From a virus, in IMG/VR virus record IMGVR_UViG_3300037584_000119, positions 1 through 25,376 of that record: a DNA stretch of 25,376 nt, one strand, 5' to 3'. Position 1 is the first letter of the stretch, and each line of letters opens with the position of its first letter. Below are positions 1 through 15,980 of this stretch, piece after piece. The notes beneath the pieces are model-generated. The model searched no databases and was not told the DNA's origin. It was given only the letters and a program-made list of their open reading frames with translations. A program made the position numbers and the translations under genes.

Positions 1-2043
1 TTAGTAGCAGATGGTGCAGTTCTTGTAGATACTGCAGGTGATATAACTTTAGATGCAGATGGTGGAGATGTTGTACTTAAAGATGGTGGAACACAGTTTG
101 CTTCTCTTACAAATACTAGTGGCAACTTAATAATTAAGTCAGGCACTACAACTGCCATGACATTTGATGGTGCTAACGTAACTTTTGCAGGAACAGTAAC
201 AATAGGTTCTGCAGGTATATCTGAAGCAGAACTAGAGATACTAGATGGTGCTACAGTTACTACAGATGAACTTAATGTTCTTGATGGTATAACTTCTGTA
301 GTAGGTGAACTTAACATTGTAGATGGTGACACTAGTGCTACATCAACTACAGTAGCAGATGCAGACAGAGTTGTTTATAACGATGCAGGAACTATGAAGC
401 AAGTTGCTGTTACAGATTTAGATACATACTTTTCTGCTACATCAAAGACACTTACTAACAAAACTTTAACAACTCCTATAATTGCAGAAATAGACTCAGG
501 CTCTACTATAACATTAGATGCTACCACAGACATTGTTTTAGATGCAGATGGTGGTAATGTAATATTCAAGGATGGTGGCACATCAATACTTGATATAGCA
601 AACAACTCAACAGATGTAGAGTTAACTGTAAGCACTGCAGATAAAAACTTTGCAATAAAAGGAACAGATGGTTCTAGTGCAATAACTGCTCTTGACATTG
701 ATATGGCTCTAAATGGTAAAGCTACTTTTAGTGGTGACGTAGTTGTTACAGGTGACTTAACTGTAACAGGTGATGACCTAACTATGGGTACTAATACCAG
801 TGGTCATATCATGGTTGCAGATGGAACTAACTTTAATCCTGTAGCAGTATCAGGTGATGTTACAATATCTTCTGCAGGTGCAATAACTATTGCTAATAAT
901 GCAGTAGAAACTGCAATGTTAAATGCAAATGTTATAACAGGACAGACTGCTGAAACATCACTAGACTCATCTAATGATACATTACTTGTACATGATGCAA
1001 GTGCTAGTGCATTAAGAAAAACTACATTAGCTTCTATATCCTCTGCTCTCGGTGGTATCACAGACGTTGTAGCTGATACAAGTCCTCAACTTGGAGGTTC
1101 ACTTGATGTAAACGGAGAGGATATTGTTTCTACATCTAATGGCAATATTACACTTACACCAAACGGAAGTGGTGTTGTAAGAATAGATGGTTCTAATGGT
1201 ATTGATATGCAGTCAGGTGCAATATCAATCAAGAACTCAGGTGCTCAATCTTATGTAAGATTCTACTGTGAATCAAGTAATGCTCACTATGCACAATTAC
1301 AAGCACCTGCTCATGCTGACTTCTCAGGTAATACTACATTAACACTACCTGCAACAACAGATACAATAGTTGGAAGAGCAACAACAGATACATTAACAAA
1401 TAAAACATTAACAACTCCTACAATTAATGGAGCTACTATTGGTTCTGCCAATATAGCGACTGCTAGTAATGGTGATATTAACTTTGCACCTAATGGCACA
1501 GGTAAGATTGTTGTAAGGGGTAATACTAACCAAGGTAAAATAGTATTAAACTGTGAGAGTAACAGTCACGGACAAACAATTATAGCTGCACCACATTCTG
1601 AAAGTGCAAACAATGTTCTTACATTACCTAGTACAGGTGGAGATGCTAGATTAGTCTCAGCAACTTCAACTGCTACACTTACAAATAAAACACTAACATC
1701 TCCAAAGATAAATGAGGATGTAGCAGTAACTGCAACTGCAACAGAGATAAACATACTTGATGGAGTAACGTCTACAACTGCAGAGCTAAATATATTAGAT
1801 GGTGTTACATCCACTACAGCCGAATTGAACATCTTAGATGGTGTGACTGCAACAGCAACAGAGCTAAACATCATGGATGGTGATACGTCTGCTACTTCTA
1901 CAACATTAGCTGACGCAGACAGAGTGGTAACAAATGACAATGGTACAATGAAACAGGTAGCATTGACAGATGTTAAAACATATTTATCTAGTGCAGGTTT
2001 TACTACGGATGACCCCACTGCATTAGCGATTGCCCTCGGTTGA
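1..2043 (+). CDS. Tail fibre / virion adhesion protein, 5' end cut by window edge
   Basis: The frame is open from base 1, so the gene starts left of the window; 680 codons are visible and the first internal ATG (157) is not the true start. The product is Thr/Ala/Asp/Gly-rich and highly repetitive, as in elongated beta-structured phage fibres. It has three TLTNKTLT motifs (near 448, 1390 and 1675), two arrays of a 13-residue ELNILDGVTSTTA-type unit (229-345 and 1744-1899), and a 43-residue module present twice (307-435 and 1861-1989). Such motifs are common in marine phage fibre proteins. No enzymatic domain or C-terminal chaperone domain is visible; the C-terminus is short and ends in LAIALG. 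It precedes the spike cassette, supporting a role in host recognition, but the attachment domain is off-window. Fibre call fairly sure; receptor unknown. Confidence 0.75.
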   Translation, partial: LVADGAVLVDTAGDITLDADGGDVVLKDGGTQFASLTNTSGNLIIKSGTTTAMTFDGANVTFAGTVTIGSAGISEAELEILDGATVTTDELNVLDGITSVVGELNIVDGDTSATSTTVADADRVVYNDAGTMKQVAVTDLDTYFSATSKTLTNKTLTTPIIAEIDSGSTITLDATTDIVLDADGGNVIFKDGGTSILDIANNSTDVELTVSTADKNFAIKGTDGSSAITALDIDMALNGKATFSGDVVVTGDLTVTGDDLTMGTNTSGHIMVADGTNFNPVAVSGDVTISSAGAITIANNAVETAMLNANVITGQTAETSLDSSNDTLLVHDASASALRKTTLASISSALGGITDVVADTSPQLGGSLDVNGEDIVSTSNGNITLTPNGSGVVRIDGSNGIDMQSGAISIKNSGAQSYVRFYCESSNAHYAQLQAPAHADFSGNTTLTLPATTDTIVGRATTDTLTNKTLTTPTINGATIGSANIATASNGDINFAPNGTGKIVVRGNTNQGKIVLNCESNSHGQTIIAAPHSESANNVLTLPSTGGDARLVSATSTATLTNKTLTSPKINEDVAVTATATEINILDGVTSTTAELNILDGVTSTTAELNILDGVTATATELNIMDGDTSATSTTLADADRVVTNDNGTMKQVALTDVKTYLSSAGFTTDDPTALAIALG
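229..345 (+). repeat. 13-residue (39-bp) tandem array A, three units
   Basis: Units begin with Glu codons at 229, 268 and 307 and share an EL-x-(I/V)-(L/V)-DG-x-T pattern. The period is exactly 39 bp. The third unit runs into the longer 43-residue module that recurs near the gene's end. Confidence 0.8.
307..435 (+). repeat. 43-residue fibre module, copy 1
   Basis: This 129-bp in-frame module begins ELNIVDGDTSATSTT and ends TYFS. By eye 35 of its 43 residues match copy 2 at 1861-1989. The copies lie 1554 bp (518 codons) apart and flank the gene's central region. Confidence 0.8.
1744..1899 (+). repeat. 13-residue (39-bp) tandem array B, four units
   Basis: Units start at Glu codons 1744, 1783, 1822 and 1861, exactly 39 bp apart, and encode near-identical (E/A)LNILDGVT-type segments. 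Synonymous positions differ widely between units (for example ctaaatata against ttgaacatc), so the repetition is kept at the protein level and is not a fresh duplication. Confidence 0.85.
1861..1989 (+). repeat. 43-residue fibre module, copy 2
   Basis: This 129-bp module begins ELNIMDGDTSATSTT and ends TYLS. It is the second copy of the segment at 307-435, differs at 8 of 43 residues, and sits close to the fibre's C-terminus. Confidence 0.8.
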
Positions 2044-2072
2044 TTTTACTTGACAAATCAGGCAAAACCGAG
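2035..2072. repeat. Imperfect inverted repeat spanning fibre stop codon and promoter -35
   Basis: CTCGGT (2035-2040) pairs with ACCGAG (2067-2072), and TGATTT (2041-2046) pairs with AAATCA (2055-2060). This gives 12 base pairs with an 8-nt loop and a 6-nt bulge (GGCAAA). It overlaps the fibre stop and the TTGACA box. No T-run follows, so it is not a standard intrinsic terminator; it could be an RNA processing or end structure, an operator, or chance. Confidence 0.4.
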
Positions 2073-2078
2073 TATAAT
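2050..2078 (+). promoter_or_regulatory. Consensus sigma70 promoter ahead of the spike cassette
   Basis: TTGACA at 2050-2055, a 17-bp spacer and TATAAT at 2073-2078 match both consensus boxes perfectly at the optimal spacing, in a short intergenic gap. The start of transcription would fall near 2085. That leaves only about 12 nt before the ATG at 2098 and puts the GAGGA ribosome binding site at the extreme 5' end of the message. Host RNA polymerase should recognise it. Confidence 0.75.
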
Positions 2079-2097
2079 TATATAGAGGAAAAAACAA

Positions 2098-2457
2098 ATG
2101 GCAAATACTTTTAAAGTAGTCACATTCGCTGCCGAACCTGCTAGTGCAGGAACTCCGTACACAGTATATACAACTCCGAGTAGTACAACTACAGTAGTGA
2201 TTGGACTCATACTTACAAACATACATACTGCTCAAGTAACAGCAGATGTAAAGCTCGTATCTGACACATCAGGTGGTGGTAGAGCTGCAACCAACGGAAC
2301 AGCGTTTCTAGCAAACGATGTGCCTATACCTGTAGGTTCATCACTAGAACTGCTATCAGGTGGTAAGGTCATACTTGAGACAACAGATGCTATACAGATA
2401 GATTGCTCTGTAGCAGATAAGATATCAGGAACACTAAGCATAATGGAGATAACATAA
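2098..2457 (+). CDS. Small virion-associated beta-rich protein (119 aa), probable tail/fibre accessory
   Basis: This is the first gene behind the 2050-2078 promoter. AGAGGA at 2084-2089 is its ribosome binding site, eight bases before the ATG. The sequence is Thr/Val/Ser-rich with alternating hydrophobic strands, an LPIP-like segment (VPIPVGSSLELL, about residues 75-87) and no signal peptide or membrane segment. Short proteins of this type are often found next to fibre genes in marine podoviruses and are usually annotated only as structural. The stop is one base from the next start, so it is probably co-translated with the spike. No catalytic motif is seen. The virion role is inferred from context and composition. 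Confidence 0.6.
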   Translation: MANTFKVVTFAAEPASAGTPYTVYTTPSSTTTVVIGLILTNIHTAQVTADVKLVSDTSGGGRAATNGTAFLANDVPIPVGSSLELLSGGKVILETTDAIQIDCSVADKISGTLSIMEIT

Positions 2458-2458
2458 G

Positions 2459-4150
2459 ATGCCATACATAGGTAGTGACCCATCCAACAGATTTGTAGCA
2501 CCTAAAGCAGCATCTGTATTTTCAGGTGATGGTTCTACAACTGCATTTACATTAGACCATGCAGTAGGTTCTGATGAGGACATACTTGTATCGGTGGATG
2601 GTGTTATCCAAGAACCATCTGTAGCATATGCAGTGAGCAGTGGAACTACACTTACATTTACTGCTGCACCATCAAGTAACTCAGGTAATAACATCTTTGT
2701 GTATTACTTGTTTAGAACAGTGGGTACAGTAAGTCATCCAAGTAATAATGCTTTGAGTGCGACAACAGGTACATTTACAGGTGCTTTATCTGCCAAAGGT
2801 GGTGCAGTCTTTAACGAAGATAGTGCTGATGTAGATTTCCGTGTTGAGTCAAATGGTGAAGCAAATATGCTTGTTGTTGATGGTGGAAATAATGCAGTTG
2901 TAATTGGGGAGTCTGCACCTGATACAAGTATTAGTGGTGGAACTCCTGCTTTTCAAGTTATTGGAAGTGCATTTGATTCTTTTATGTCTTTGACAAGAAG
3001 AGTGGCATCTGCTTCTGCACCAGTTCTAGCATTAACAAAAAGTAGAAACACAAGTGTAGGTTCTCATACTATAGTACAAGATGGTGATACAATAGGTGAA
3101 ATTAACTTCTTTGCAGATGATGGAACAGACTTTGATTCAAGAGTTGGAACTATAAAAGCTCAAGTAGATGGTACTCCGGGTGCAAACGACACTCCGGGCA
3201 GATTAGTTTTTATGACATCAGCAGATGGCTCAAACTCACCATCAGAACGTATGCGAATAGATAGCAGTGGCAATGTTGGTATTGGAGGTAATGGTAATCC
3301 TACGTTATATGTAGTTAATAACAATGCAGGTCCGGGATTAACTGCTGCAAATGCAACAGCAGTATTTCATGGTTCTGTTGATGCAGGAAAAGGTGGTTGT
3401 ATAGGCTTTGATTTTGGAGCATCACATACAAACTATCCAGTAGGTATAGGGTATGTAATTACAAGTCAATCAGGCTCTACCAAAGGTGATTTGTGTTTTT
3501 ACACTAGAAGTGGAACTGGAGATGATGCACCTTCCGAACGTATAAGAATTACATCTGATGGTCGTGTTGGAATAAATGATAGCACACCTACAGCAGGTGT
3601 TGATATAGCTTTTGATACTCAACAAGTTCATGCTTTACAAATTAGAAACAGTAATTCTTCTACTGGTGGTGGTAAATACATACAATTTGCAAAAGCAAAT
3701 GGTGATTTTACTGGAAGTATTACTCAATCTTCAGACCAAAATACAGTTGCTTTTAACACAAGCTCTGATTACAGATTAAAAGAGAATGTTTCATATGATT
3801 TTGATGCAACATCAAGATTAAAACAACTTAAACCTGCTAGATTTAATTGGATTTCAGATGAAAATAATACAACAATAGATGGTTTTATCGCACATGAAGT
3901 ATCAGGTATTGTTCCTGAAGCAATAACAGGTGAAAAAGATGGAACACAAGATGTTGGAACAATTAAAGATGAAGATGATAATGTTTTACATACTGATGTA
4001 CTAGAAATCACAAAGCAAGATGGAGAAACATGGACTAAAACTGGAACAAAAAATGTATATCAGGGCATAGACCAAAGCAAACTTGTACCTTTACTCGTAA
4101 AAACCATACAAGAATTAGAAGCTAGAATTACAGCATTGGAGAACGCATAA
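2459..4150 (+). CDS. Tail spike/fibre with C-terminal S74 intramolecular chaperone (spike 1)
   Basis: 563 aa. The N-terminus MPYIGSDPSN resembles that of the second spike (4703-6127) and may be the virion-docking end. The middle is a beta-rich shaft with motifs such as SSGNVGIG. The C-terminus from about residue 436 is a Peptidase_S74 domain: Ser436-Asp437-Tyr-Arg-Leu-Lys441 fits the family's Ser/Lys self-cleavage dyad, followed by the DGFIAHEV motif and a final coiled coil (about 543-563). In this family the domain drives trimer folding and then cuts itself off. The stop overlaps the next ATG as TAATG (4148-4152), implying coupled translation. The receptor-binding part is probably the variable central region. 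Confidence 0.85.
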   Translation: MPYIGSDPSNRFVAPKAASVFSGDGSTTAFTLDHAVGSDEDILVSVDGVIQEPSVAYAVSSGTTLTFTAAPSSNSGNNIFVYYLFRTVGTVSHPSNNALSATTGTFTGALSAKGGAVFNEDSADVDFRVESNGEANMLVVDGGNNAVVIGESAPDTSISGGTPAFQVIGSAFDSFMSLTRRVASASAPVLALTKSRNTSVGSHTIVQDGDTIGEINFFADDGTDFDSRVGTIKAQVDGTPGANDTPGRLVFMTSADGSNSPSERMRIDSSGNVGIGGNGNPTLYVVNNNAGPGLTAANATAVFHGSVDAGKGGCIGFDFGASHTNYPVGIGYVITSQSGSTKGDLCFYTRSGTGDDAPSERIRITSDGRVGINDSTPTAGVDIAFDTQQVHALQIRNSNSSTGGGKYIQFAKANGDFTGSITQSSDQNTVAFNTSSDYRLKENVSYDFDATSRLKQLKPARFNWISDENNTTIDGFIAHEVSGIVPEAITGEKDGTQDVGTIKDEDDNVLHTDVLEITKQDGETWTKTGTKNVYQGIDQSKLVPLLVKTIQELEARITALENA

Positions 4151-4686
4151 TGGCATTAACAAAGGTACAAGGTGAAGGAATAAATGGGATAAGCATTACT
4201 TCTGGTGGTGTTGTTACTATGGCTAGTACAACATTTGCACAAGCCTTCAGACTGACATCAAACTTAACATCAAATGGTGATTTGACTAATTGGGAGGCTT
4301 GTGATGATGCGAGTTCTGGAGCAGTAGGAACTGCAATTACAGTGGGTAGTGGACTTTTTACATTTCCTATTACTGGACTTTATAAAATTGATTATTTTTA
4401 TCAAACATTTAATGGTAGTGGGTCACAAGATAATTACATAACTTTGAATTTGTTTCATAGTTCTAATAGTGGTTCAGACTTTGACCAAATAACTGAATCA
4501 TCTGCAGGTGGTACAGATGACATGAGTGCTTCTGGTACTGGAATGGCTCTTGTTAATGTTACCAATGCTTCAACACACAAAGTTAAATTAACAGGTGGCT
4601 CAATAGCAAGTGGTTCACTCATATCAGGCAATTCAGTAGCTAATACAACTGCAATAATATTTCAGAGATTGACAAATAGTCAATAG
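4150..4686 (+). CDS. C1q/TNF-like jelly-roll protein (178 aa), probable fibre tip or accessory
   Basis: The start is fixed by the TAATG overlap with spike 1. Residues 68-84 carry the core C1q-type signature: Phe70 and Phe72, then Pro, Gly76, Tyr78 and aromatic Tyr82/Phe83. This is followed by beta-rich sequence to the end (IIFQRL near the C-terminus). C1q/TNF-like folds form trimeric jelly rolls that bind sugars or proteins and occur at phage fibre ends. Lying between two S74 spikes, it is likely a surface-exposed binding or collar component. The family match rests on the short signature only; a generic beta-sandwich fibre protein is the alternative. Confidence 0.6.
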   Translation: MALTKVQGEGINGISITSGGVVTMASTTFAQAFRLTSNLTSNGDLTNWEACDDASSGAVGTAITVGSGLFTFPITGLYKIDYFYQTFNGSGSQDNYITLNLFHSSNSGSDFDQITESSAGGTDDMSASGTGMALVNVTNASTHKVKLTGGSIASGSLISGNSVANTTAIIFQRLTNSQ

Positions 4687-4702
4687 TAAAGAGGTATAAA
4701 CA

Positions 4703-6127
4703 ATGGCATATATAGGAGTCAGTCCATCTAATGGAGTACGTAGGGTTCACACCTACACTGCAACAGCATCGCAGACCACATTCAGTGGTGCAGGTGCAGA
4801 GGGTACATCTTTAAGTTACAAAGACAGTAACTTTGTAGATGTGTACCAAAATGGTATCAAGTTAGGTGACGCAGACTATACATCAACAAGTGGTACATCA
4901 ATCGTACTAGCACAAGGAGCATCCGTAGATGACCTCGTGGTGGTCGTGGTATTTGATGTATTCTCGGTAGCAGACACTGTAAGTAAAGCAGATGGTGGCA
5001 CGTTTGATGGTGCAGTTACTTTTGCAGGTGGTGTGTCAGGTGTGCTTGATGCAGATGATGGCATTACAGTAGATAACATAACAATAGATGGTACAGAGAT
5101 TGACTTATCAAGTGGTAATTTAACGATAGATGTAGCAGGTCAATTAGTAATAAATTCAGATTCTGGTCAAGTAGTGTTACAAGATGACACAGTTAATTGG
5201 GGTAATCTTCAAAACTCATCAGGTGATTTTGTTATTGAATCATTAGGTACAGACAAGGATATAATATTTAAAGGTCTTGATGGTTCTTCTACAATAACTG
5301 CCCTTACACTTGATATGTCAGCTAATGGAGATGCAACTTTTAATGGTCAAATAATTGTACCACAATATATAGCTCATCAAGGGGATGGCAATACATTTAT
5401 AGAATTTGGTACAGACCAAATGGGTTTCAGTCAGGGTGGTGTTGAAAGATTTGAAATGAACAAATCAGGAGGTGTTGTAAGAATAAAACCCGGAGGTAGT
5501 AATGTAATATATTTTGATGGTAATGGACAATCTATTAATAGTGAAACTAGGAGAGGTAGATTAGATATAGAATCAAATATTGCAGCTTATGCCATTGCAA
5601 GTTGGAAAAATCAAGTTAATAACACAGGTAGTTTTTTCTTGTCTTGTTTAAATCACTCAGGGAGTGGAATAGGTGGTATAAGTCAAGCATCTGAAACCAC
5701 ATTAGCTTTTAATACCTCATCTGATTACAGATTAAAAGAAAATGTAGAATATGATTGGGATGCAACAACTAGACTAAAACAACTCAAACCTGCTAGATTT
5801 AATTGGATATCTGATGATACTAATACTGCACAAGATGGTTTCTTAGCACATGAAGTTTCAGATGTTGTGCCTATAGCAATCAATGGTGTTAAAGATGGCA
5901 CTAGAGATATTGGAACAATCAAAGATGCAGATGGAAATGTTTTACAAGAAAATACTATTGAAGCAAGAAAAGAAGATGGGCAAACATGGACTAAGACAGG
6001 CACAGAGGTCATGTATCAATCCATAGACCACAGTAAACTTGTACCTCTTCTAACAAAGACATTACAAGAAGCACTTACAAGAATAGATACACTTGAGGCA
6101 GAAGTGAAAGCATTGAAAGGTGAATAG
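4703..6127 (+). CDS. Tail spike/fibre with C-terminal S74 intramolecular chaperone (spike 2)
   Basis: 474 aa, preceded by AGAGG about nine bases upstream. The N-terminus MAYIGVSPSNGVRR parallels spike 1. Residues 1-90 look like a compact beta adapter (YQNGIKL, then a run of Val and Phe), followed by a repetitive shaft. The Peptidase_S74 domain starts near Ser340-Asp341-Tyr-Arg-Leu-Lys345, the expected Ser/Lys dyad, with DGFLAHEV after it and a coiled-coil tail. That domain is very similar to spike 1 even at DNA level, while the central regions differ. It should trimerise and self-cleave like other S74 spikes. The next gene begins immediately after the stop. Confidence 0.85.
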   Translation: MAYIGVSPSNGVRRVHTYTATASQTTFSGAGAEGTSLSYKDSNFVDVYQNGIKLGDADYTSTSGTSIVLAQGASVDDLVVVVVFDVFSVADTVSKADGGTFDGAVTFAGGVSGVLDADDGITVDNITIDGTEIDLSSGNLTIDVAGQLVINSDSGQVVLQDDTVNWGNLQNSSGDFVIESLGTDKDIIFKGLDGSSTITALTLDMSANGDATFNGQIIVPQYIAHQGDGNTFIEFGTDQMGFSQGGVERFEMNKSGGVVRIKPGGSNVIYFDGNGQSINSETRRGRLDIESNIAAYAIASWKNQVNNTGSFFLSCLNHSGSGIGGISQASETTLAFNTSSDYRLKENVEYDWDATTRLKQLKPARFNWISDDTNTAQDGFLAHEVSDVVPIAINGVKDGTRDIGTIKDADGNVLQENTIEARKEDGQTWTKTGTEVMYQSIDHSKLVPLLTKTLQEALTRIDTLEAEVKALKGE

Positions 6128-7252
6128 ATGACCAAAGCAGCAGAATTAGCAAAGATGGGTGAAGTCCTAACCAATAGTCAGATTGGTGGGCGAAGGAATT
6201 TGCTTTTTAATGGTGCAATGAATGTAGCACAAAGAAGCACAAGTCTAACTAGTCAAGGTGCTTATCCGGGAGGTTATCTAACTGTAGATAGATGGAAGTT
6301 TGTAACTAATAATTCGGCAGGAAGATTTACTGTTACACAAGAAGCAATCACAGACCTTCCGGGATTTTTAAATTGCACTAAATTAGATTGCACAACAGCA
6401 GATACCTCTATCGCATCAGGAGAATATTTATTATTCTCACAATATCTTGAAGGACAAGACCTTCAACAAATAAAAAAGGGCACAAGTGAAGCTGAAAAAA
6501 TTACATTATCTTTTTATGTGAAGGGCAATGCTTCAGCAACATATACTGCTGAAATAGAAGATAGTGATAATTCAAGATATAATTCTCAAGAATTTTCTGT
6601 AACAACAAGTTGGAATAGAGTTGTTTTAACTTACAATGCAGACACTACAGGAGCATTTGATGATGATAATGCTGCATCTTTAAGATTAAATTTATGGATT
6701 CATTCAGGTTCAGATTTTAGTAGTGGCACACATACTAGCAATGCTTGGCACACAACTGCTACTCAAAGATTTGGAGACAATTCCAACTCTTTTTATTCAA
6801 GTACAGACAATACGTTTTTTATTACTGGAGTCCAGTTAGAAGTAGGCTCACAAGCCACACCATTTGAGCATAGGTCATATGGAGAAGAATTACAGCTTTG
6901 CCAAAGATATTTTGAAATAATGTTTAGAGGTAGTAATGCACAAAATGGGACACAAAAAACAACTGTAGGTGCTGGAGTTTGGTATGGGGCAAATCAAGTT
7001 TTAGCAACAATGCTATATTCTCCTAAAAGGACGCAACCAACAATAACTCAAAGTGAAACTGGTGCTTTAGGTGCTTATGGCAATGCTTATTTTAGAACTT
7101 CAACCGATTCTACACCTTTTGATTCTATTACTGAAACAGGTTGTAGACTAAATATAGAATCTTTTAATGCTAGTGGTACAGCAGGTGATGGGGTATTTGC
7201 AATGTTAGTTAACCCTAATTCTAGTAGTGTATCAATAGATGCAGAATTGTAG
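6128..7252 (+). CDS. Tail fibre protein (374 aa), carbohydrate-binding-like beta sandwich suspected
   Basis: The ATG directly follows the spike 2 stop; GGTGA six bases upstream is a fair ribosome binding site. Near residue 24 is NLLFNGAMNVAQR and near residues 235-262 is an LEVGSQATPFEHRSYGEEL block followed by CQRYF. Both are recurrent in phage tail fibre and minor tail proteins, where they bracket a beta-sandwich that resembles carbohydrate-binding modules. The region between them (about 45-230) has alternating strands and aromatic residues. The C-terminal 100 residues are likely exposed. No enzymatic residues are evident. Role in glycan binding during adsorption is inferred; fibre identity is reasonably sure. 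Confidence 0.7.
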   Translation: MTKAAELAKMGEVLTNSQIGGRRNLLFNGAMNVAQRSTSLTSQGAYPGGYLTVDRWKFVTNNSAGRFTVTQEAITDLPGFLNCTKLDCTTADTSIASGEYLLFSQYLEGQDLQQIKKGTSEAEKITLSFYVKGNASATYTAEIEDSDNSRYNSQEFSVTTSWNRVVLTYNADTTGAFDDDNAASLRLNLWIHSGSDFSSGTHTSNAWHTTATQRFGDNSNSFYSSTDNTFFITGVQLEVGSQATPFEHRSYGEELQLCQRYFEIMFRGSNAQNGTQKTTVGAGVWYGANQVLATMLYSPKRTQPTITQSETGALGAYGNAYFRTSTDSTPFDSITETGCRLNIESFNASGTAGDGVFAMLVNPNSSSVSIDAEL

Positions 7253-7260
7253 GAGAGATT

Positions 7261-7434
7261 ATGAATATTACATCAGCACAATATAAAGTTGATTTAGATG
7301 GCAAAACAAAGGTAGGTATAAAAGCAAAAATAGATGGAATATGGTGTGTTGTACCACTAGATTCTACCAACAGACACTACATGGCAATCCAAGAATGGAT
7401 GACTGCTGGTAACAAGATAGAGGATGCCGACTAA
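7261..7434 (+). CDS. Hypothetical small protein (57 aa)
   Basis: A clear AGGAGA ribosome binding site (7252-7257 region) lies four bases before the ATG. The 57 codons end at TAA 7432-7434. The product starts MNITSAQYKVDLDG, has a central GIWCVVPLD segment and ends in acidic IEDAD; no membrane segment or known domain is seen. It fills the only gap between the fibre gene and the membrane protein gene, and the next likely ATG lies one base after its stop. Its good ribosome site and tight packing argue that it is real. Function unknown. Confidence 0.65.
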   Translation: MNITSAQYKVDLDGKTKVGIKAKIDGIWCVVPLDSTNRHYMAIQEWMTAGNKIEDAD

Positions 7435-7435
7435 C

Positions 7436-7672
7436 ATGGAAAGCATTGACCCAATGTTATTTTGGAACATAATCCTGACTATGGTCGTTGTACCATTCGG
7501 TTGGGCATTTAACAAGATGTTCCAAGAGGTCAAGCGTATACAGATACTCCTTAACAAGACACGAGAAGAGTATGCACGTAAGGATGACGTTAAGGATGAT
7601 ATGCACGAGTTGATGGATGCACTAAGAAGATTAGAAGATAAGTTAGACAAAGTATTAATAGGAAATAGATAA
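7436..7672 (+). CDS. Membrane-anchored coiled-coil protein (78 aa), possible holin/spanin-like lysis or ejection factor
   Basis: One hydrophobic segment (about residues 7-26, LFWNIILTMVVVPFGWAFN) is followed by a highly charged heptad-like helix (EVKRIQ to KLDKVL), as in small phage membrane proteins of the holin/XhlA or spanin-like kind. The ATG at 7436 was preferred: it follows the previous stop by one base and has AGAGGA at 7419-7424 upstream. An ATG at 7424 would add four residues but directly abuts that site. The stop overlaps the next start (TAATG). Without a visible lysis enzyme in the window, a lysis role is only a guess; an inner-membrane part of the DNA ejection channel is also possible. 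Confidence 0.55.
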   Translation: MESIDPMLFWNIILTMVVVPFGWAFNKMFQEVKRIQILLNKTREEYARKDDVKDDMHELMDALRRLEDKLDKVLIGNR

Positions 7673-9744
7673 TGCAGATGGCACAACAAAACATATCTGA
7701 TATTTTAAATGCTAAAAAGGCATTTTTACGAGCTAAACAAGATGTTATTGTTCCTGAACAAAACATGAGTATGGCAGAAGGTGGTATGTATATGGGTCGC
7801 TTTGACCAAAGACAAGACACTGAAGGTGTCGGTTCTTTTGTACCACCACCAAGACAATCTTTTCAGACAGGTGGTACACCTACTGTACGAGAACGTAAGG
7901 TGATATTTGATGACCAAGGTATGCCGGGAATTGCTTTCGCAGACCCTCAACCGGGTGACCCTTTGTATGAACCACCCCACCTTCGTAATGTTCCTCCGAG
8001 AGTAAACACAATGGCAAAGGCTACAGGAATACAAGTCTTACCTACTGTACAAAATCCAAGTGCTACATATAACCCTAATGCAACTATAGGTGATATATCA
8101 GCACAGATGGCAACTGCTCCTGCATTACCTGAAGGTGCTCAAATACAACCTGTAGGCACAACTCCTACAGCAGGACAACTTTTACCTACAGACATAGGTG
8201 TAACAGGTCAAGTTGCACTACCTGCCGCACAAGCAGGAACAGCAACTGCACAGCAACAAAGTAAAGCTGATGCTCAACAACTACAAGCACAGGCTGTAAC
8301 TCCACAGATACGAGAAGCATTACAAACAGTTCAAGGTGCTCAAGTAACTGACCAAGAAAGACAAAGGTCACAAGTACAGGCACAACAACAGACAACAACT
8401 TCTGTAGCAGATTTAACTGCCGCTCAAGGTGTTGCAACTCAGATGACAAACCCTATTCAAAGGGAAATACAAGCAGGTGAGTTAGTATCCCCTACAGCTA
8501 ATGCAGAGAAAGCAAAGACATTTACAGAACAAGTACAGGCGGCTACAGCGTCACCTACAGACAAAGCAACTGTAGCAGGACAACTAGCAAGTCTTACTGC
8601 AAACTTTGATGCAACAAATCCACCATCATGGGCAGCAGGAGCAATAAGAGGTGTCCAAGCAGTTATGCAACAAAGAGGTCTTGGTGCTTCTAGTATTGCA
8701 GGACAAGCTCTTGTACAGGCTGCTATGGAATCAGCGTTACCTGTAGCACAAGCCGATGCAAGAACATTTGCTACTTTTGAAACACAGAATTTATCTAATA
8801 GACAACAACGTGCTATGTTAGCGGCTCAACAAAGAGCACAGTTTATAGGACAAGAGTTTGACCAAGGTTTTCAAGCTAGAGTACAAAATGCCGCAAAGAT
8901 AAGTGATATAGCTAATAGAAACTTTACTGCAGAGCAACAGGTAGGATTAGAGAACTCTCGTGCTGCTCAAACTATGAATCTAAATAACTTGTCTAATAGA
9001 CAGGCATTAGTAATGGCAAATGCTTCTGCTCTTTCAGGTTTAGATACAGCAAACTTAAATGCAAGACAACAGTCTGCAGTGCAGAATGCACAATCATTCT
9101 TACAAATGGATATGGCTAACTTATCTAATAGACAACAGGCAGATATGTTTGGAGCACAGCAACAGATACAATCTTTGTTCACTGACCAAGCTGCTCAAAA
9201 TGCCGCAAGACAGTTTAACGCAACATCACAGAATCAGGTTGACCAATTCTTTGCTAACTTAGGACAACAAGCTAATCAGTTTAATGCGACACAGATGAAT
9301 GCACAGTCACAGTTTAACGCAGGTCAGGCTAATACAATAGAAAGATTTAATGCAGAAATTAATAATCAGCGTGACCAATTCAACGCACAGAATCAATTAG
9401 TGATTGCACAAGCAAATGCTAATTGGAGAAGACAGTTAGCTACTCAAGATACCGCTGCTATTAATAGAGCTAATGAATTGAATGCTCAGAATATATTAGG
9501 ACTAAGTAATCAAGCCTATAATAACTTATGGCAATATTATGGTGACACTATGGAGTGGGCATGGACATCTGCAGAGAATGAAAGAAGTCGTGTTATTGAA
9601 CTTGCAAAAGCACAGCTACAAGCTGACAGTGCTTTTAATATACAAGACATGAAAAATGATTATGCCTCTTCATCTGCTTTTGGTGGATTGATTGGTAAGT
9701 TTGTAACAGGTTCAATGTTTGGTGGTGGAGGATTATTCGGATAA
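7672..9744 (+). CDS. Gln/Asn-rich internal virion protein with 11/22-residue helical repeats (690 aa)
   Basis: The ATG overlaps the previous stop, and AGGAA (7660-7664) lies seven bases upstream. Residues 1-120 are Pro/Gly-rich and probably flexible, and 150-300 are Ala/Gln/Thr-rich. From about 373 to 605 the protein is helical, with Leu/Phe at 374, 396, 418, 440, 462 and 484 (period 22) and Phe at 515, 526, 537, 548, 559 and 570 (period 11). The final 20 residues are Gly-rich and hydrophobic (GGLIGKF, FGGGGLFG), perhaps a membrane-active tail. Position next to the large late proteins suggests an ejection protein of the T7 gp14/gp15 kind; no sequence match to those is claimed. Confidence 0.65.
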   Translation: MQMAQQNISDILNAKKAFLRAKQDVIVPEQNMSMAEGGMYMGRFDQRQDTEGVGSFVPPPRQSFQTGGTPTVRERKVIFDDQGMPGIAFADPQPGDPLYEPPHLRNVPPRVNTMAKATGIQVLPTVQNPSATYNPNATIGDISAQMATAPALPEGAQIQPVGTTPTAGQLLPTDIGVTGQVALPAAQAGTATAQQQSKADAQQLQAQAVTPQIREALQTVQGAQVTDQERQRSQVQAQQQTTTSVADLTAAQGVATQMTNPIQREIQAGELVSPTANAEKAKTFTEQVQAATASPTDKATVAGQLASLTANFDATNPPSWAAGAIRGVQAVMQQRGLGASSIAGQALVQAAMESALPVAQADARTFATFETQNLSNRQQRAMLAAQQRAQFIGQEFDQGFQARVQNAAKISDIANRNFTAEQQVGLENSRAAQTMNLNNLSNRQALVMANASALSGLDTANLNARQQSAVQNAQSFLQMDMANLSNRQQADMFGAQQQIQSLFTDQAAQNAARQFNATSQNQVDQFFANLGQQANQFNATQMNAQSQFNAGQANTIERFNAEINNQRDQFNAQNQLVIAQANANWRRQLATQDTAAINRANELNAQNILGLSNQAYNNLWQYYGDTMEWAWTSAENERSRVIELAKAQLQADSAFNIQDMKNDYASSSAFGGLIGKFVTGSMFGGGGLFG
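8788..9486 (+). repeat. Coding hendecad repeat region of the 690-aa virion protein
   Basis: It encodes residues 373-605. The first part repeats every 22 residues with N-(L/F)-(S/T/N)-x-(R/E)-Q starts (NLSNRQQ at 373 and 483; related units at 417, 439 and 461). The second part repeats every 11 residues with a (Q/R)FNA core. Register shifts by two residues between the parts, near residue 505-515. The DNA is not tandemly identical. Confidence 0.8.
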
Positions 9745-9935
9745 TGGAAACAAACCCTTCTTTAAATATATATAGAAAATTATCTAAGATGCAAGTAGAG
9801 CCTATGCAAGAGCCTAAAGGTGGTCTACTATCTAAAACTATGTCTACTAAAGCTAAAAAATATAAGCCTAATGTAGATGTAACTATGCGTGTAGCAAGAT
9901 ATATACAAGATATTAAGGATTATAATAATGCGTGA
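9744..9935 (+). CDS. Hypothetical small basic protein (63 aa)
   Basis: The start overlaps the preceding stop (TAATG at 9742-9746) and the end overlaps the next gene by eight bases (9928-9935), a typical phage operon arrangement. The product is Lys-rich in its middle (KTMSTKAKKYKPN) with a C-terminal amphipathic stretch (VARYIQDIKDYNNA). No membrane segment or known domain is visible. Its location between two probable virion proteins suggests a structural or assembly role, but the sequence alone does not say. Confidence 0.6.
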   Translation: METNPSLNIYRKLSKMQVEPMQEPKGGLLSKTMSTKAKKYKPNVDVTMRVARYIQDIKDYNNA

Positions 9936-10425
9936 TGTTGACCAAATATCATTTAGTGCTCCTATTCCGGGGCAATCTCTTACACATGAGTTAAGGGCAA
10001 GACCTTGGCAAAACCCACCACAGTTTAACACTGTAGAAGAATCTATGGATTGGTATTTAGAAAGGTTTGATAATCCTGAATTAGTGCAAGAATTATTATC
10101 TGTAATGGAATCAGGTGTACCTATTAGTACAATAGCTAATTCTATGCAACTTGGTGCAGTATTACAAGGTGTGCATAGTATAGATGTGGGTGTTTTAGTT
10201 ATGCCTATACTTATGGAGATAATGAAAACATTAGCAGAGAGAACAGATACTAAGTATGTAATGGGTGATGAGCCTGAAGAATCAGACAGACCATCTGATG
10301 CTGTATTAGATTCTGCTTTGAATAAGATTAAAGGCATGACAGTAGAGGATATGCCTGAAGAAGAAGAGATGATGGAAGAAGAGACACAAGAAGAACCTAT
10401 GGGTCTTATGGCGAGGAGAGCATAA
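9928..10425 (+). CDS. Conserved marine-phage protein of unknown function (165 aa), virion-associated by context
   Basis: The N-terminal blocks (FSAPIPGQSLT, then ARPWQNPPQF) and the central GVHSIDVGVLVMPILMEIMK segment look like a family I have seen repeatedly, uncharacterised, in marine podoviruses next to internal virion protein genes. The C-terminus is strongly acidic (EDMPEEEEMMEEETQEE, about 144-160) and probably disordered, then ends in Met/Arg. The gene overlaps both neighbours (8 bases upstream; TAATG downstream), so translation is likely coupled. No catalytic motif is seen. It could be a scaffold or chaperone for the ejection proteins, but that is speculation. Confidence 0.6.
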   Translation: MRDVDQISFSAPIPGQSLTHELRARPWQNPPQFNTVEESMDWYLERFDNPELVQELLSVMESGVPISTIANSMQLGAVLQGVHSIDVGVLVMPILMEIMKTLAERTDTKYVMGDEPEESDRPSDAVLDSALNKIKGMTVEDMPEEEEMMEEETQEEPMGLMARRA

Positions 10426-11876
10426 TGGGATTTAACTTTGGTGCATTTTTAGGTGGAGCAGCTTCACAGATAGTTGAAGATATTGATGAGCAAGAAAAAG
10501 AAGTAAAGCTCCGTACTAGAACTATACTTGATAGACAAGTAGCTGAAGCTGCAGAGAATAGAAAAAAGTTTCAAGATGATAAAGAGAAGATAGAGAAACA
10601 AATAACATCTATAGCTCAACTGTTTGGAGAGAATGACCCATTTAGATTTAACAAAGCTAGGTCTATTGTTGCAGGTGGTGATGAGCACTACAATACTATG
10701 TATAAAGAATTATCTACACATAAAAGACTTGGTGGTGACATGGGTCAAGCATATGATTATACTGCCGCTAACGAAGAGCAAGGCTTTGCAGGTGTTGCAG
10801 ATGCTGCGAAAGGTCTAGCCAAACTAAGAACAATAGAAGCACCTGAGTTTACAGAGGGCGTAAGAAGTAAAGGTCAAAAGTTATTTGGTATAGACTCAAA
10901 GAGTATGTATGAGAAAGCTAGGTCACAGTATGAACAGGCAGGACTATTGCCTAGTTCAAGTGCAGAATTAAAAGAAACTGTAAAGAAGTATGGAACAGGT
11001 AGTATAAACTTTCAGAACTTAAAGAAAGATGTGAAAGACGTGCAGACTATGTATGCTCAGAACGCTCAAGCTATATTAGCATTAGATAAAACTGCTCCTG
11101 ATTATAAAGAGAAAAGAGCTAAGCTAGAGGCAGATAATAAAATATTAACAGAACAAGTATCTAACATGAACATGGTTAGTGCATCTGTAATAGCAGAAAA
11201 GCTAAGACAAGACAATAAAGATACAGGTCAGTCATTAACGGAGATGAAAAATCTTTACAAAGACTCTAGAAATAAGTATGAGAAAAGTCTCCAATACAGT
11301 AAAACTGATGGTATCATAGATGATAATGGTAACAATTTGTTTGATAATGAAGCTAAAGAATACTTTGATAAAAAAATGGAAGAGTGGGATAATAATTATG
11401 TCAAAGGATTAATAGATGGTAATGGTGACTTAATAGATAATAGTGCCGATAGTCAGGCATTTATAAAATCCTTTGGTCTTGATAAATATGTAGGTAAACC
11501 TAAAGAAGAAGAAGAGAAAGTTGATAAACCTAAAAAAATTACATTTGAAGACAAAGTTAAAAGTGCTCAAGATGCAGGTAGTCCTGAAGCATTTTTACAA
11601 GGTGAGTTAGGTAAGATATCCAAAGGATTAAGTAGTGAAAGAAAAAATAAGATATATCAAAAGATATTTGAGATAGTTCAAAATGCATATCCTAATGCTA
11701 CTAACATTCAAGAGATAGTAAATAAAGAAATAGATAAGTATGAGGCGGCACAAAAAACAAAAACATTTGTTAGAAACAAAGGTGATGTGGCTGAGAATAC
11801 GGAAAAACCTATCATACTAGATGATAAAGGCGAAGAGATAACAAACCCCAACTTTAAATATTCAGGTGCTATATAG
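10425..11876 (+). CDS. Coiled-coil internal virion protein candidate (483 aa)
   Basis: A strong GAGGAGAG ribosome site lies within the previous gene's end, five bases before the ATG. The first 17 residues are Gly-rich and hydrophobic (GFNFGAFLGGAASQIV). They precede long charged helices (about 20-70, 195-260, 360-420) with predicted coiled-coil character and no beta-rich adhesion motifs. Lys and Glu dominate the second half. Its place just before the largest late gene matches T7-like internal core proteins (gp15 position), but no direct homology is visible to me. It ends 12 bases before the next GTG start. Product class inferred from order and helix content. Confidence 0.5.
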   Translation: MGFNFGAFLGGAASQIVEDIDEQEKEVKLRTRTILDRQVAEAAENRKKFQDDKEKIEKQITSIAQLFGENDPFRFNKARSIVAGGDEHYNTMYKELSTHKRLGGDMGQAYDYTAANEEQGFAGVADAAKGLAKLRTIEAPEFTEGVRSKGQKLFGIDSKSMYEKARSQYEQAGLLPSSSAELKETVKKYGTGSINFQNLKKDVKDVQTMYAQNAQAILALDKTAPDYKEKRAKLEADNKILTEQVSNMNMVSASVIAEKLRQDNKDTGQSLTEMKNLYKDSRNKYEKSLQYSKTDGIIDDNGNNLFDNEAKEYFDKKMEEWDNNYVKGLIDGNGDLIDNSADSQAFIKSFGLDKYVGKPKEEEEKVDKPKKITFEDKVKSAQDAGSPEAFLQGELGKISKGLSSERKNKIYQKIFEIVQNAYPNATNIQEIVNKEIDKYEAAQKTKTFVRNKGDVAENTEKPIILDDKGEEITNPNFKYSGAI

Positions 11877-11888
11877 TAGGAGAAAAAA

Positions 11889-14800
11889 GTGAAAGAGCTT
11901 AAAACAGGTGACTCTTATTATGACTCGTTATTTGAAGAAGAAGAAAAAGAAACAACTCAAACTCCTGTCGTAGAAGATTCTTATTATCAATCCCTATTAG
12001 ACGAAGAAGAAATACCTGCAGAAAAAGAAGAGATTTCTGTAACAGGAGACTCCTTTTATGATTCTCTAGTAGAGGAAGAGGCTACTTACGAATTAAATCC
12101 AGAATATGCAGAAGAAACAAAAGTAGATAGAGTAAAAACTCTAGACGAGTTCTCTAAAGATGAGAACTTCCTATCCACACTACGCTCCTATGCCAAGAAA
12201 AGGTTTGGTGACTCAGGTCTTCAAGAAGAAGGCGAGAGTAATAAAGACTATGTGCGTAGATTTCTCACCCACTACAGACAATTTAGTTCTAATACATTAG
12301 ACTTGGCTAGTCAGGTTGACTACATTCGTGGTGCAAACGACCAAGACAAAGCAGAGTTTGGTGCATTATATAGAGATATACAAAGACTCCCTAACTTCTA
12401 TGAAGAAGGTGGTGACAGAAGTCTTGGTGCTTTTTCAGATTATGCATTCTCTTTCTTTGCTGACCCTCTTGTGCTCTTCGGTTTTGGTGCAGGTAAAGCT
12501 GCCACAACAGGTGCAAGAAAAGCAGCCGAACAGCTATTCTTAGATGTAGGTAAAAAGGGTGCTATGAGAGAAGCAAGTAAACTAGGGTTTAAAGCTATAA
12601 GAAAACCACTTGCTATAGAAGCAGGTATAGAAGGTATACGTGCAGGTTATGAGACTCAGGCAGAGTCAGAGCTTGAAGAAGCGGCAGAATTAAGAGAGGG
12701 TGATGCCTCTATAGGAGAGATATTAACAGGAGCTACTATAGGTGCGACAGTTGTTGGTGCTATTGGTTTACCTTTTGCAGGTAAGTTAGGTAAAAGTGCT
12801 GTAAAAAAAGTTATTGAGGATGACGCTAAAAATATAGTAGAAGGAATAGAAAAGTCAGAGGCAGGTAAAACTGTATTTGCAGGTAAGTTCAGCGTTAATG
12901 CTGATGACATATCTTTTGACCCTTTAGAGGGAAGAACTATATTAGATAATATAGACCCTAATCTAGACCTATCTAATCTAGATTTATTGGATAAGAAAAC
13001 TAAGAAAGATGTAATACATAGAGTTGGTAAGTTTGCTACAGAAGTTGTAGAAGACATGATGAAAGACCCCAAGGGTAGATTTGATGACTTCTTAGCAGAG
13101 TATAGGTCAGGAGAAAAGACTGCATCAGAAGCCATAGGAAATATATTAAATAGACTAGAAGACTTCAAAGACATAGACGCAGATATTTTAGATGGTGCTA
13201 TAGCAAGAGCAGGTTTATCTCAAGAGCAGTTTGCTAAGATTACTTTCACATCTTTCAGTGAAGCAGGTAGCATATTAAGTGCAGCTAGTCCTCTAGGTAA
13301 GTTGATAAAAGGATATAAAGATGCAGACCCTGAGATAAAAAAGTTATATGAAAATACTTTTGGTAAAGAGGGAGACTCTTATACAGGTAAGTTTGGAGAG
13401 GTTATGCATCGTCTTGATAGAGAAAGACGAGCACTCATGGTTACACAGGTGTCTACCACTGTTCGTAACGTAGCCACAGGTGTGGCAAGATTAGGTTTTG
13501 ATACAGGCTATAATATAATGGAATCAACTCTGTACCACGCAGGTAGAGCTTTTGATTCTTTAATTAGTGGAAGAGCTGCACAAGATATAGAGTCAGGTAA
13601 ATTTACTCAAGGTCTCAGAGATATAGCAAGAGACAGCTTTGGTTTATTAGCTTTTACACTAGATAGGTTTGACCAAACAGGTGACCTAGTACAAGGTATG
13701 TTACAATACAATCCCCAACTCTTGAAGGTATTAAATAGAACAACAGGTGAGGTATCAGGAACTGAAACCTTATCTAAATTTACTATGGGTATGAACAAAC
13801 TTAATATAATGCAAGATACATTTTTTAGAAAAGGTGTATTTACTGCATCAGTAGATAAAAAACTAAGAAGAATGGGTTTGAGTTTAGAAGAAGTCTTAGA
13901 AAAGAATATGGTGCTACCAACTAAACTTTTGAGTGATGCAGTGGAAGATTCAGTAGCGTTTACATTCTCTCGTATGCCTAAAGAAAACTCTAAGAAATAT
14001 GTAGGTGATAGCTTGGCTCACACCTTTATAAAGTTTAATGAGAAGTTAGGACCTTTACCCGGACTTATTGGTGCTCCTGTAGGTACAGGTGCATTTCCTT
14101 TTGCTAGGTTTATGGCAAACGCTATGCAGTTTCAATTCCAATATAGTCCTCTCAGCTTCGTAGGAGCTACACTTAATAGTGCAGGTGGTGCATTAAAGTA
14201 TATGAAAGCTGCTATGGGAGACATGAATGATGCTCAGAGAAAGCAATTATTACAAGGGGGTAAGGCTAACATAGATAAAGCAAGAGAACAGTTTGCTAAA
14301 GGTATGGTAGGTTATGGTGCTTTAATGACAGCTATTCATCACAGAGCTAATAATCAAGATGTCAGATGGTATGAAGGTAAGACTGAAGATGGTAGAACAA
14401 CAGACCTAAGACCTTTCTTCCCACTTGCTCCATATCTAGTTGTAGCTGATTTGATTGTTAAGTGGGATAACAACGAACTAGACAAGATAGATGCTAAGAA
14501 AGTATTAGAAGGATTGACAGGCACTCAGTTTAGAACAGGTGCAAGTTCATATATGATAGACTCTTTCTTTAGGGGTCTAAGAAGTCCTTCAGGATTAACT
14601 GACATATCAGGTGAAAAAATAGGTGAATATGTTGGTGGATACGTGGGTGAACTTGTAGGTGGTGCGTTAACTCCGGGTAGAATTGTAAGAGACGTAGTGG
14701 CTGCCTTTGATGAAGAAGAGGCAAGACTCAAGGACTTTAATAAGATTGAAGGTACAGGATTTAATGAGAGAGGTCTCAGTAAATTTAGTAACACTATAGC

Positions 14801-15386
14801 ACGTAACCTACCTTTTATGTCTAAGTATGGTGGTTATGATGAGCTACAGAGTCCTACTAGAGAGGGTGCTATAATAAGGCAAGACCCCATAGGAACTCAG
14901 TTGACAGGTATAAGAAAAGAGCAGAGAAGAACTCCTATAGAAGAGGAGCTAATTAATCTAGGTCTTGAAAACTATATGGTAGTTCCTTCATCAGGTGATA
15001 AAGAAGCTGACTTCTTTGTTAAAAAATACATGGGTAAGTACGTACAAGATGAAGTATCTAAACTTATTGAGACAGATAGATATAAGAATGCTAGTAATAT
15101 AAAGAAAAGAGTCATGATGAAAAGAAGACTCGCTAGATTCAGAAAGATATCTAAGAAAATAGGTGAGGTAGAAGCTAGGAAAGAGGCGAGAGATGAGGGC
15201 AAGGCATTCACTGCATTTGATAGAGCACAGTTCCTAAGAATAGGAAATGAGAAGCGTAAACTAGCAGATGAATACTACATGGATAAGTATGGAAGCACTG
15301 TTATGGAAATGCAGGAAGCAGAACCTGAAGTCAATCATCTAAAAAGAGGTAAAAGAATAGGTCAGATACTCTCTAGAAGAAGCTAA
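11889..15386 (+). CDS. Large internal virion / DNA-ejection protein (1165 aa)
   Basis: It begins with GTG; AGGAGA five bases upstream (11878-11883) supports this start. The N-terminus is acidic and carries three SYY-type repeats (residues 7-19, 29-41 and 53-65). Amphipathic and Gly-rich hydrophobic stretches occur around 195-215 and 274-300 (GEILTGATIGATVVGAIG), and a conserved-looking FFPLAPYLVVADLIVKW lies near 843. The C-terminus is very basic (KKRVMMKRRLARFRK, about 1073-1087), suiting DNA or membrane contact. Size and last position in the structural operon parallel T7 gp16, but I see no transglycosylase motif. The stop overlaps that of the converging mazG gene. Confidence 0.6.
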   Translation: MKELKTGDSYYDSLFEEEEKETTQTPVVEDSYYQSLLDEEEIPAEKEEISVTGDSFYDSLVEEEATYELNPEYAEETKVDRVKTLDEFSKDENFLSTLRSYAKKRFGDSGLQEEGESNKDYVRRFLTHYRQFSSNTLDLASQVDYIRGANDQDKAEFGALYRDIQRLPNFYEEGGDRSLGAFSDYAFSFFADPLVLFGFGAGKAATTGARKAAEQLFLDVGKKGAMREASKLGFKAIRKPLAIEAGIEGIRAGYETQAESELEEAAELREGDASIGEILTGATIGATVVGAIGLPFAGKLGKSAVKKVIEDDAKNIVEGIEKSEAGKTVFAGKFSVNADDISFDPLEGRTILDNIDPNLDLSNLDLLDKKTKKDVIHRVGKFATEVVEDMMKDPKGRFDDFLAEYRSGEKTASEAIGNILNRLEDFKDIDADILDGAIARAGLSQEQFAKITFTSFSEAGSILSAASPLGKLIKGYKDADPEIKKLYENTFGKEGDSYTGKFGEVMHRLDRERRALMVTQVSTTVRNVATGVARLGFDTGYNIMESTLYHAGRAFDSLISGRAAQDIESGKFTQGLRDIARDSFGLLAFTLDRFDQTGDLVQGMLQYNPQLLKVLNRTTGEVSGTETLSKFTMGMNKLNIMQDTFFRKGVFTASVDKKLRRMGLSLEEVLEKNMVLPTKLLSDAVEDSVAFTFSRMPKENSKKYVGDSLAHTFIKFNEKLGPLPGLIGAPVGTGAFPFARFMANAMQFQFQYSPLSFVGATLNSAGGALKYMKAAMGDMNDAQRKQLLQGGKANIDKAREQFAKGMVGYGALMTAIHHRANNQDVRWYEGKTEDGRTTDLRPFFPLAPYLVVADLIVKWDNNELDKIDAKKVLEGLTGTQFRTGASSYMIDSFFRGLRSPSGLTDISGEKIGEYVGGYVGELVGGALTPGRIVRDVVAAFDEEEARLKDFNKIEGTGFNERGLSKFSNTIARNLPFMSKYGGYDELQSPTREGAIIRQDPIGTQLTGIRKEQRRTPIEEELINLGLENYMVVPSSGDKEADFFVKKYMGKYVQDEVSKLIETDRYKNASNIKKRVMMKRRLARFRKISKKIGEVEARKEARDEGKAFTAFDRAQFLRIGNEKRKLADEYYMDKYGSTVMEMQEAEPEVNHLKRGKRIGQILSRRS

Positions 15387-15745
15387 CGACTATCTCCTGA
15401 CCCTCGTAATGTTCCTCGTGTCTTTCTATCGTTAAGTTTATACAGATTATCTTCCATAATCTTACCTAGATTAGCACCTAACTCATTCGCTAACATGGCA
15501 CAATACCAAAGCACATCACCTATCTCAGACGCTACATTTGATTCTGTGCCATCACGAATATGTTTCTTTACTTTCCCTGCTACCTCTCCTGCTTCACTCA
15601 CAAGTCCAAGAGATAGGTAAGCTATGGCATCTTTCTTAGGATAGATAGCTGTAGTCTTACACTTCTCTTGGTATTCATTTGCAGTTATCAAACTCTTATT
15701 GTGCAACTGCATGAACTTCTTGGCTTCTTCTTCTAGCTTCGTCAC
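15383..15745 (-). CDS. mazG: MazG-like nucleotide pyrophosphohydrolase (120 aa)
   Basis: A MazG/all-alpha NTP pyrophosphohydrolase fold is indicated by the paired acidic motifs Glu51-x-x-Glu54 (in LVSEAGEVAGKVKK) and Glu74-x-x-Asp77 (in SEIGDVLWY), which bind Mg2+. The family hydrolyses (d)NTPs to monophosphates and pyrophosphate; phage versions have been linked to nucleotide balance and, more speculatively, to ppGpp. Length is typical of the single-domain form. The GTG start at 15745 is backed by GGAGAA eight bases upstream; it lies 50 bases inside the previous gene. It is the last gene of the replication arm, and its stop overlaps that of the 1165-aa virion gene. Confidence 0.85.
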   Translation of the reverse strand: MTKLEEEAKKFMQLHNKSLITANEYQEKCKTTAIYPKKDAIAYLSLGLVSEAGEVAGKVKKHIRDGTESNVASEIGDVLWYCAMLANELGANLGKIMEDNLYKLNDRKTRGTLRGSGDSR

Positions 15746-15980
15746 GTTTTACTTTCTCCAACTGTTTAGAGTAGGCAAAGTTATATCCTCTTTGCCACTC
15801 TCTATGTTGCATGGAGTTAGGATTGTATGGACTCTCTGTACATATAATCTTAGCACCAAACTTAGCAACATTACGTATATATTGTTTGCCTTTGAAGGCA
15901 TTGACCCCACGCTCAAACTGAATACGTAGGGGTGCATCATACTTACTTAGATTTGGATTCCTTTTTTTCTTCGATTTCAT
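15696..15980 (-). CDS. RMF-like (ribosome modulation factor) protein (94 aa)
   Basis: Residues 21-69 follow the layout of ribosome modulation factor: QFERGVNAF with Gly25 and Ala28, a Ser50-Pro51-Tyr52 in the place of RMF's Cys-Pro-Tyr, then Arg60, Trp62, Gly65, Tyr66 and Ala69 (HREWQRGYNFA). RMF dimerises 70S ribosomes during stationary phase. Here a roughly 15-residue insertion separates the two halves and both ends are very basic, as expected for RNA contact. AGGAG lies about eight bases before the ATG. The gene overlaps its upstream neighbour by 38 bases and mazG by 50. The assignment rests on a short pattern and could instead mark an unrelated basic protein. Confidence 0.45.
   Translation of the reverse strand: MKSKKKRNPNLSKYDAPLRIQFERGVNAFKGKQYIRNVAKFGAKIICTESPYNPNSMQHREWQRGYNFAYSKQLEKVKRDEARRRSQEVHAVAQ

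Follow-up and report, generated by a model that had tools for sequence, protein, structure and literature searches.

The 690-residue protein P0001, encoded on the plus strand at positions 7672..9744 of the 25,376-nucleotide stretch of viral DNA analyzed here (the window), contains a rod of 22- and 11-residue repeats whose length varies among relatives in whole steps of 11 residues. Rod length was measured between HMM-modelled flanks, from the PIAQ motif (residue 358) to the Trp of NxxWRR (residue 585). By this measure the flank-to-flank distance is 227 residues in the window protein, and it equals 7 mod 11 in every complete homologue measured (about 220, among them 46 of 46 representatives at <70% identity and four further phages). 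Ten distinct lengths were found (139, 150, 161, 172, 183, 216, 227, 282, 315 and 337 residues), and of the moduli 2 to 39, 11 alone makes all ten congruent. A preliminary description of this DNA had tied its repeat to homologues keeping the 11-residue spacing, and every complete homologue maintains it. Whole-hendecad lengths are the expectation for a continuous helical rod under register constraint.

The rod lies between two conserved anchors, all parts being encoded on the plus strand. The N-terminal part (residues 1-290; 7672..8541) begins with a short helix at 5-26 and continues as a low-complexity Ala/Gln/Thr/Pro-rich stretch that is predicted to be mostly disordered (AlphaFold2 pLDDT <50 over most of 30-277). 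It is followed by a conserved helical pre-repeat domain (residues 298-372; 8563..8787; pLDDT 76-89 in the first AlphaFold2 model), which carries the motifs ATVAGQL...RGLGASS...PVAQADA and serves as the left anchor. The rod proper consists of six 22-residue units with an NLSNRQQ core (residues 373-504; 8788..9183), a conserved junction, DxAAxNAA (residues 505-514; 9184..9213), and six Phe-marked 11-residue units with a QFNA core (residues 515-580; 9214..9411). The right anchor (residues 581-660; 9412..9651) contains the conserved NxxWRR and LWxxYxDxxEWAWxSxENExxR motifs. The protein ends in a Gly-rich hydrophobic segment (residues 665-690; 9664..9741) with a 19-residue hydropathy maximum of 0.95; the Gly-rich hydrophobic C-terminus noted earlier is real and generally conserved, a comparable segment being present in most relatives with G671 nearly invariant.

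The two parts of the rod are quantised separately. The distance from the left anchor to the junction takes values of 59, 81, 103, 136, 147 and 213 residues, the copy number of the 22-residue unit differing among relatives over this range, and the distance from the junction to the Trp takes values of 69, 80, 102, 113, 124 and 201 residues. The 125/36 split of L210, in which the junction model landed on a different unit, was left out of these values, and distances of 51 in L140 and L218 were excluded as artefacts of proteins cut off at contig ends. Although the right anchor is in register with the repeat, its position in complete proteins is fixed by the unique EWAW segment, which the anchor model also covers. 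As a control, the stretches preceding the first anchor and following the second were measured in the same set; their lengths are scattered over all residue classes mod 11, and the N-terminal part varies freely in length. A tree of the flanks (a quick one with some long branches) requires at least 11 length changes; were these random whole-codon indels and independent events, the chance that all 11 changes are multiples of 11 would be 11^-11, or ~4e-12. The same step is visible at the DNA level in two pairs of relatives (86% and 81% DNA identity), whose rod-coding sequences differ in length by exactly 66 nt in one pair and exactly 33 nt in the other.

Within the window protein, the repeat first reported at 8788-9486 corresponds to residues 373-605 of the ORF at 7672-9744. 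Direct reading confirms both of its elements: Leu/Phe recurs every 22 residues (L/F/F/L/L/L at 374, 396, 418, 440, 462 and 484; 374+22n), and Phe recurs every 11 residues (515, 526, 537, 548, 559 and 570; 515+11n). None of 1000 shuffles produced the run of six Phe at spacing 11, and 9-11 of 1000 (~1%) produced the L/F-class run. For a run of any big hydrophobic residue at spacing 22, shuffles gave a p-value of about 0.09-0.10; thus, the repeat claim is carried by the Phe run and the family evidence, and the 22-residue period taken alone in a single sequence would be weak. No tandem repeat was detected by TRF in the underlying DNA, which indicates that the repeat is old and maintained at the protein level. 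Residues 363-605 contain 33% Asn+Gln and have a net charge of +1.

The two parts of the rod differ in the kind of hendecad that they contain. Fourier analysis of the hydrophobic residues showed periods of 11 and 11/4, which dominate residues 373-504, unlike the 11/3 of residues 511-605; hydrophobic residues at 11/3 in a helix, as expected of a hendecad coiled coil, are clear in this second half only. In a profile of 85 proteins of the 227-residue class, aligned to the window protein without gaps, the hydrophobic residues of the 22-residue part occupy hendecad positions 0, 3, 6 and 8 and span about 200 degrees of the helix. This unusual 3-3-2-3 spacing is a non-canonical hendecad seam, and position 0 alternates between Ala and Leu/Phe, which generates the 22-residue period. 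The Phe-marked part follows the classical, canonical 4-4-3 pattern, and several of its other positions carry Asn/Gln. The suggestion of right-handed or straight helical packing suits the 4-4-3 pattern of residues 515-580 only, and not residues 373-504 with their 3-3-2-3 spacing. The proposed two-residue register shift between the parts is borne out: the distance from 484 to 515 is 31 residues, or 3x11-2, in agreement with the family profile, in which the hydrophobic stripe shifts in phase by about 180 degrees at residues 504-515 and moves to the opposite helix face.

The rod is predicted to be mostly helix, with moderate to low model confidence. A first AlphaFold2 model, built with 67 homologues, places helices at 341-432, 440-502 and 520-609, with the lowest rod confidence at 493-525; a second model, of residues 290-690 with one length class, places them at 342-392, 398-480 and 486-680, with pLDDT of about 42-77 (mean pLDDT 61 for the first model and 58 for the second). 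Disorder over residues 373-605, which the preliminary description had counted as evidence against its repeat, was not predicted apart from the low confidence at 493-525, and the hendecad helix is supported by the Fourier tests, the family profile and both models. A hinge at 505-515 had also been suggested. The seam does change face there, and one model has its lowest confidence in this region, but the second model is one unbroken helix across it; the helix breaks thus differ between the two models, which supports the helix and leaves the hinge not established. Searches of the PDB by sequence and by fold gave no useful match, and none to phiX174 protein H. A BFVD fold search gave four strong matches, two of which have the lengths of family members (1021 and 460 aa, CRP-9 and CHOED).

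The window derives from an HMO-2011-type marine podovirus, although no near DNA match to it was found among phages. P0001 is the orthologue of phage1322_25 of Puniceispirillum phage HMO-2011 (65% identity over residues 138-674), shares the pre-repeat, repeat and WRR/EWAW homology and the 7 mod 11 length, and has the 165-aa partner gene next. Further relatives occur in Roseobacter CRP phages, Pelagibacter HTVC phages, Sinorhizobium phiM6, Vibrio CHOED, Aeromonas MQM1 and Pseudoalteromonas Slicky01, and one scan of viral contigs gave 596 relatives. The proteins of the named phages form the same sequence family in the same gene order, with optional N-terminal extensions and C-terminal modules; their rods range from 150 to 315 residues in the isolates and reach 337 in the metagenome-assembled ctYwJ313. 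All relatives are annotated as hypothetical protein, save for one arbitrary "huntingtin" label in ctYwJ313. RCA phages of this group are short-tailed podoviruses (PMC6918029).

Some relatives carry additional parts. In L052, L080, L082, L087, L088 and L229 the rod homologue has a large N-terminal extension and reaches about 1000-1250 residues. HMO-2011 and several relatives (C-termini of L081, L025, L041, L055, L057, L072 and L078) have an optional module, CWVAREVYG...W..FR.WL...AP.W, with no Pfam match. A Peptidase_S74-type module (SDxxLKxNV...) ends 5 of the 67 homologues (L095, L096, L177, L209 and L192) and is absent from the window protein.

The window rod protein matched nothing in Pfam or PHROG, tape-measure families included. 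An identity as a PHROG "DNA ejection protein" or "virion structural protein" was considered for the family and rejected: these matches vanish once S74 is removed and hence give no evidence of core homology. With hhalign, the rod family had no match to T7 gp14 or P22 gp7 and aligned to Salmonella phage 7-11 gp20 and Pseudoalteromonas H6/1 gp17 in the S74 region only; a scan for H6/1 gp17 relatives from which to build a gp7-type profile found none. By sequence, the rod protein is a member of no family tested except the HMO-2011-type family.

Downstream of the rod gene, and also on the plus strand, lie a 63-aa ORF (9744..9935), the next gene of the cluster, present in nearer relatives only (66 loci); the conserved rod partner gene, encoding a 165-aa protein (9928..10425), found in all named relatives and at 200 loci; a 483-aa candidate middle ejection-type protein (10425..11876), like T7 gp15 and P22 gp20 in size and position without a sequence match; and a 1165-aa candidate large ejection-type protein (11889..15386), like T7 gp16 in size and position, again without a sequence match. 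The order rod, small protein, about 165-200 aa, 306-935 aa and 817-1893 aa is common to relatives and is kept in HMO-2011, CRP, HTVC, phiM6, CHOED, MQM1 and Slicky01. This small-medium-large order, and the sizes, resemble an ejection operon, although extra genes are present and the neighbors had no match to the Salmonella phage 7-11 and T7 proteins tested. The gene directly behind the rod gene in three Roseobacter phages encodes a recognizable cell-wall hydrolase, of a different family each time (L088:5318-6256, L228:4316-5191 and L226:4289-5902; Hydrolase_2, SLT/phage lysozyme, and LysM with weak GH19). These hydrolases fit envelope penetration but may be lysis genes.

The explanation that we favor, and to which we give about an even chance, is by analogy with known ejection systems that the rod protein is the first of a four- or five-gene ejection-type cluster and acts as an ejected oligomeric DNA conduit or its lining. 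It would probably be packaged inside the virion and then ejected. Several copies, each with the pre-repeat domain, a hendecad helix of about 227 residues (about 340 Å if fully helical) and the Gly-rich end, would stand side by side; the hydrophobic seams would make helix-helix contacts, the Asn/Gln-rich surfaces would either face solvent or, like those of the phiX174 H tube, line a DNA lumen, and the C-terminal hydrophobic part would insert in the membrane. A role as a DNA channel is plausible by gene position, Gln/Asn composition and the Gly-rich hydrophobic end.

Support for such a conduit comes from the whole-hendecad lengths and the 66-nt and 33-nt indels, from the mostly helical models, and from the Asn+Gln content, which may be compared with the lumen of phiX174 H. 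The gene order is like that of T7 14-15-16 and P22 7-20-16 (PMC8954989) in a group with short-tailed RCA members, and P22 gp7 likewise ends in a Gly-rich hydrophobic stretch. The S74 module of some homologues also occurs on P22-gp7-type DNA ejection proteins, and the hydrolase genes behind the rod gene point the same way. Against the conduit, S74 aside, there is no sequence or profile match to T7 gp14, P22 gp7 or other ejection proteins; the family measures 459-1251 aa, compared with 181-240 aa for gp14-like proteins (PMC8954989); model confidence is moderate to low; the hydrolases could belong to lysis; and our literature search found no virion proteomics for the HMO-2011-type phage group. 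In podovirus SU10 of the phiEco32 group, gp22 (annotated as a DNA injection protein), gp23 and gp24 were found in virions (PMC4281155), which bears on the rod protein as analogy only.

The conduit analogy is based on the channels of gp14 and DEV gp73 (PMC8954989, PMC10925440). T7 gp14, P22 gp7 and DEV gp73 resemble the rod protein in gene position, at the head of what would here be a small-medium-large ejection-type cluster, and in their Ala/Gln/Asn-rich helix; gp14 and gp7 differ in size (about 200 aa versus 690 aa), and a long quantised rod is not reported for any of the three. In the phiX174 H tube, 18 of 23 lumen residues are Asn, Gln or Arg, and the coiled coil starts with three hendecads (PMC7354561). 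H is alike in being rich in Gln/Asn/Arg and in having hendecads that change to another pattern along one helix, and it is a virion protein that delivers DNA, as we propose for the rod protein. No sequence relation between the two was found. H forms a decameric tube in a tailless ssDNA phage, whereas the transition in the rod is from hendecad to hendecad with a face switch.

A further, tentative reading is that short-tailed phages possess a tape measure of their own, an ejected helical rod in which the count of 11-residue units would determine how long the DNA conduit (or an internal core) is. It would evolve by gain and loss of whole units, as do siphophage tape measure proteins. The latter contain 11-residue repeats marked by F/W, and the published search pattern requires seven F/W at spacing 11 (PMC3271669). 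They share with the rod protein the period of 11, the Phe marker, the variable number of whole 11-residue units and the helical rod. In contrast, the relatives of the rod phage are short-tailed according to the literature (PMC6918029) and lack the long tail whose length a tape measure sets. The rod gene also differs from tape-measure genes in position, flanks and sequence, and its product has six Phe in a row rather than seven and combines 22- and 11-residue units, with a face switch between them. Rod length is unlikely to act as a simple ruler of the host envelope, since phages of the same host strain, FZCC0040, have rods of 161 (CRP-212 and CRP-3) and 216 residues (CRP-207). Inspection of the named phages showed no obvious correlation between rod length and the size of the downstream proteins.

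The same-host lengths, in arguing against a length set by the envelope, would also suit an internal structural rod or core protein, such as a lining of the portal barrel or an organiser of packaged DNA, that is no part of a trans-envelope channel. Gene position and helical repeat would fit such a protein equally. We nevertheless regard it as unlikely: the Gly-rich hydrophobic C-terminus and the conserved aromatic segment suggest a membrane step, and the gene order resembles that of ejection operons. An external tail part in the form of a trimeric fibre or needle, with a shaft of coiled coil and, in some homologues, S74 as the usual fibre chaperone, appears quite unlikely. The rod gene does lie close behind tail-fibre genes, and S74, a module common on tail fibres, ends a few homologues; but S74 is also found on proteins annotated as DNA ejection proteins, in most homologues, the window's included, it is absent and the C-terminus is Gly-rich and hydrophobic, and the pattern is a hendecad with Asn/Gln, not a heptad trimer. 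In apolipoproteins and synuclein, 11-mer repeats form amphipathic helices on the membrane surface. That the rod is a monomeric helix of this type, coating or disturbing the host membrane, is very improbable despite the 11/3 periodicity of 511-605 and the few charges, as residues 373-504 are broad and weakly amphipathic and the quantisation of both rod halves suggests a partner register, although an amphipathic helix would also favor multiples of 11.

In our best reading, the rod protein represents a podovirus ejection protein of a new and enlarged form, a hendecad-ruler variant. The 11-residue quantisation offers a testable ruler hypothesis for envelope spanning by podoviruses, and the rod would connect short-tailed phages with the tape-measure principle known from long-tailed ones; if true, the ruler reading concerns a phage group that ranks among the most abundant in the sea. 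For a large family of hypothetical proteins, the flank-to-flank distance of 7 mod 11 provides an easy annotation mark.

Several features around the cluster were also noted. Just upstream of the rod gene, window positions 7424-7672 encode an 82-aa protein that has a single hydrophobic segment at its N-terminal end and a tail that is charged and coiled-coil-like; its PHROG matches were all weak. Several tail-fibre-like genes stand in succession at positions 1-7252; the S74 end is confirmed for one of them, another has an end similar by eye, and one repeats a LNILDGVTSTTAE motif. In Pelagibacter phage HTVC115P, annotations for a toxin-activating lysine-acyltransferase and Hsp20 lie around the ejection-type cluster (L085:12892-13341 and 23089-23508). 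Gene direction and GC skew both switch at about 15.4 kb (window positions 15383-15750), the meeting point of the structural genes (plus strand) and the replication genes (minus strand).
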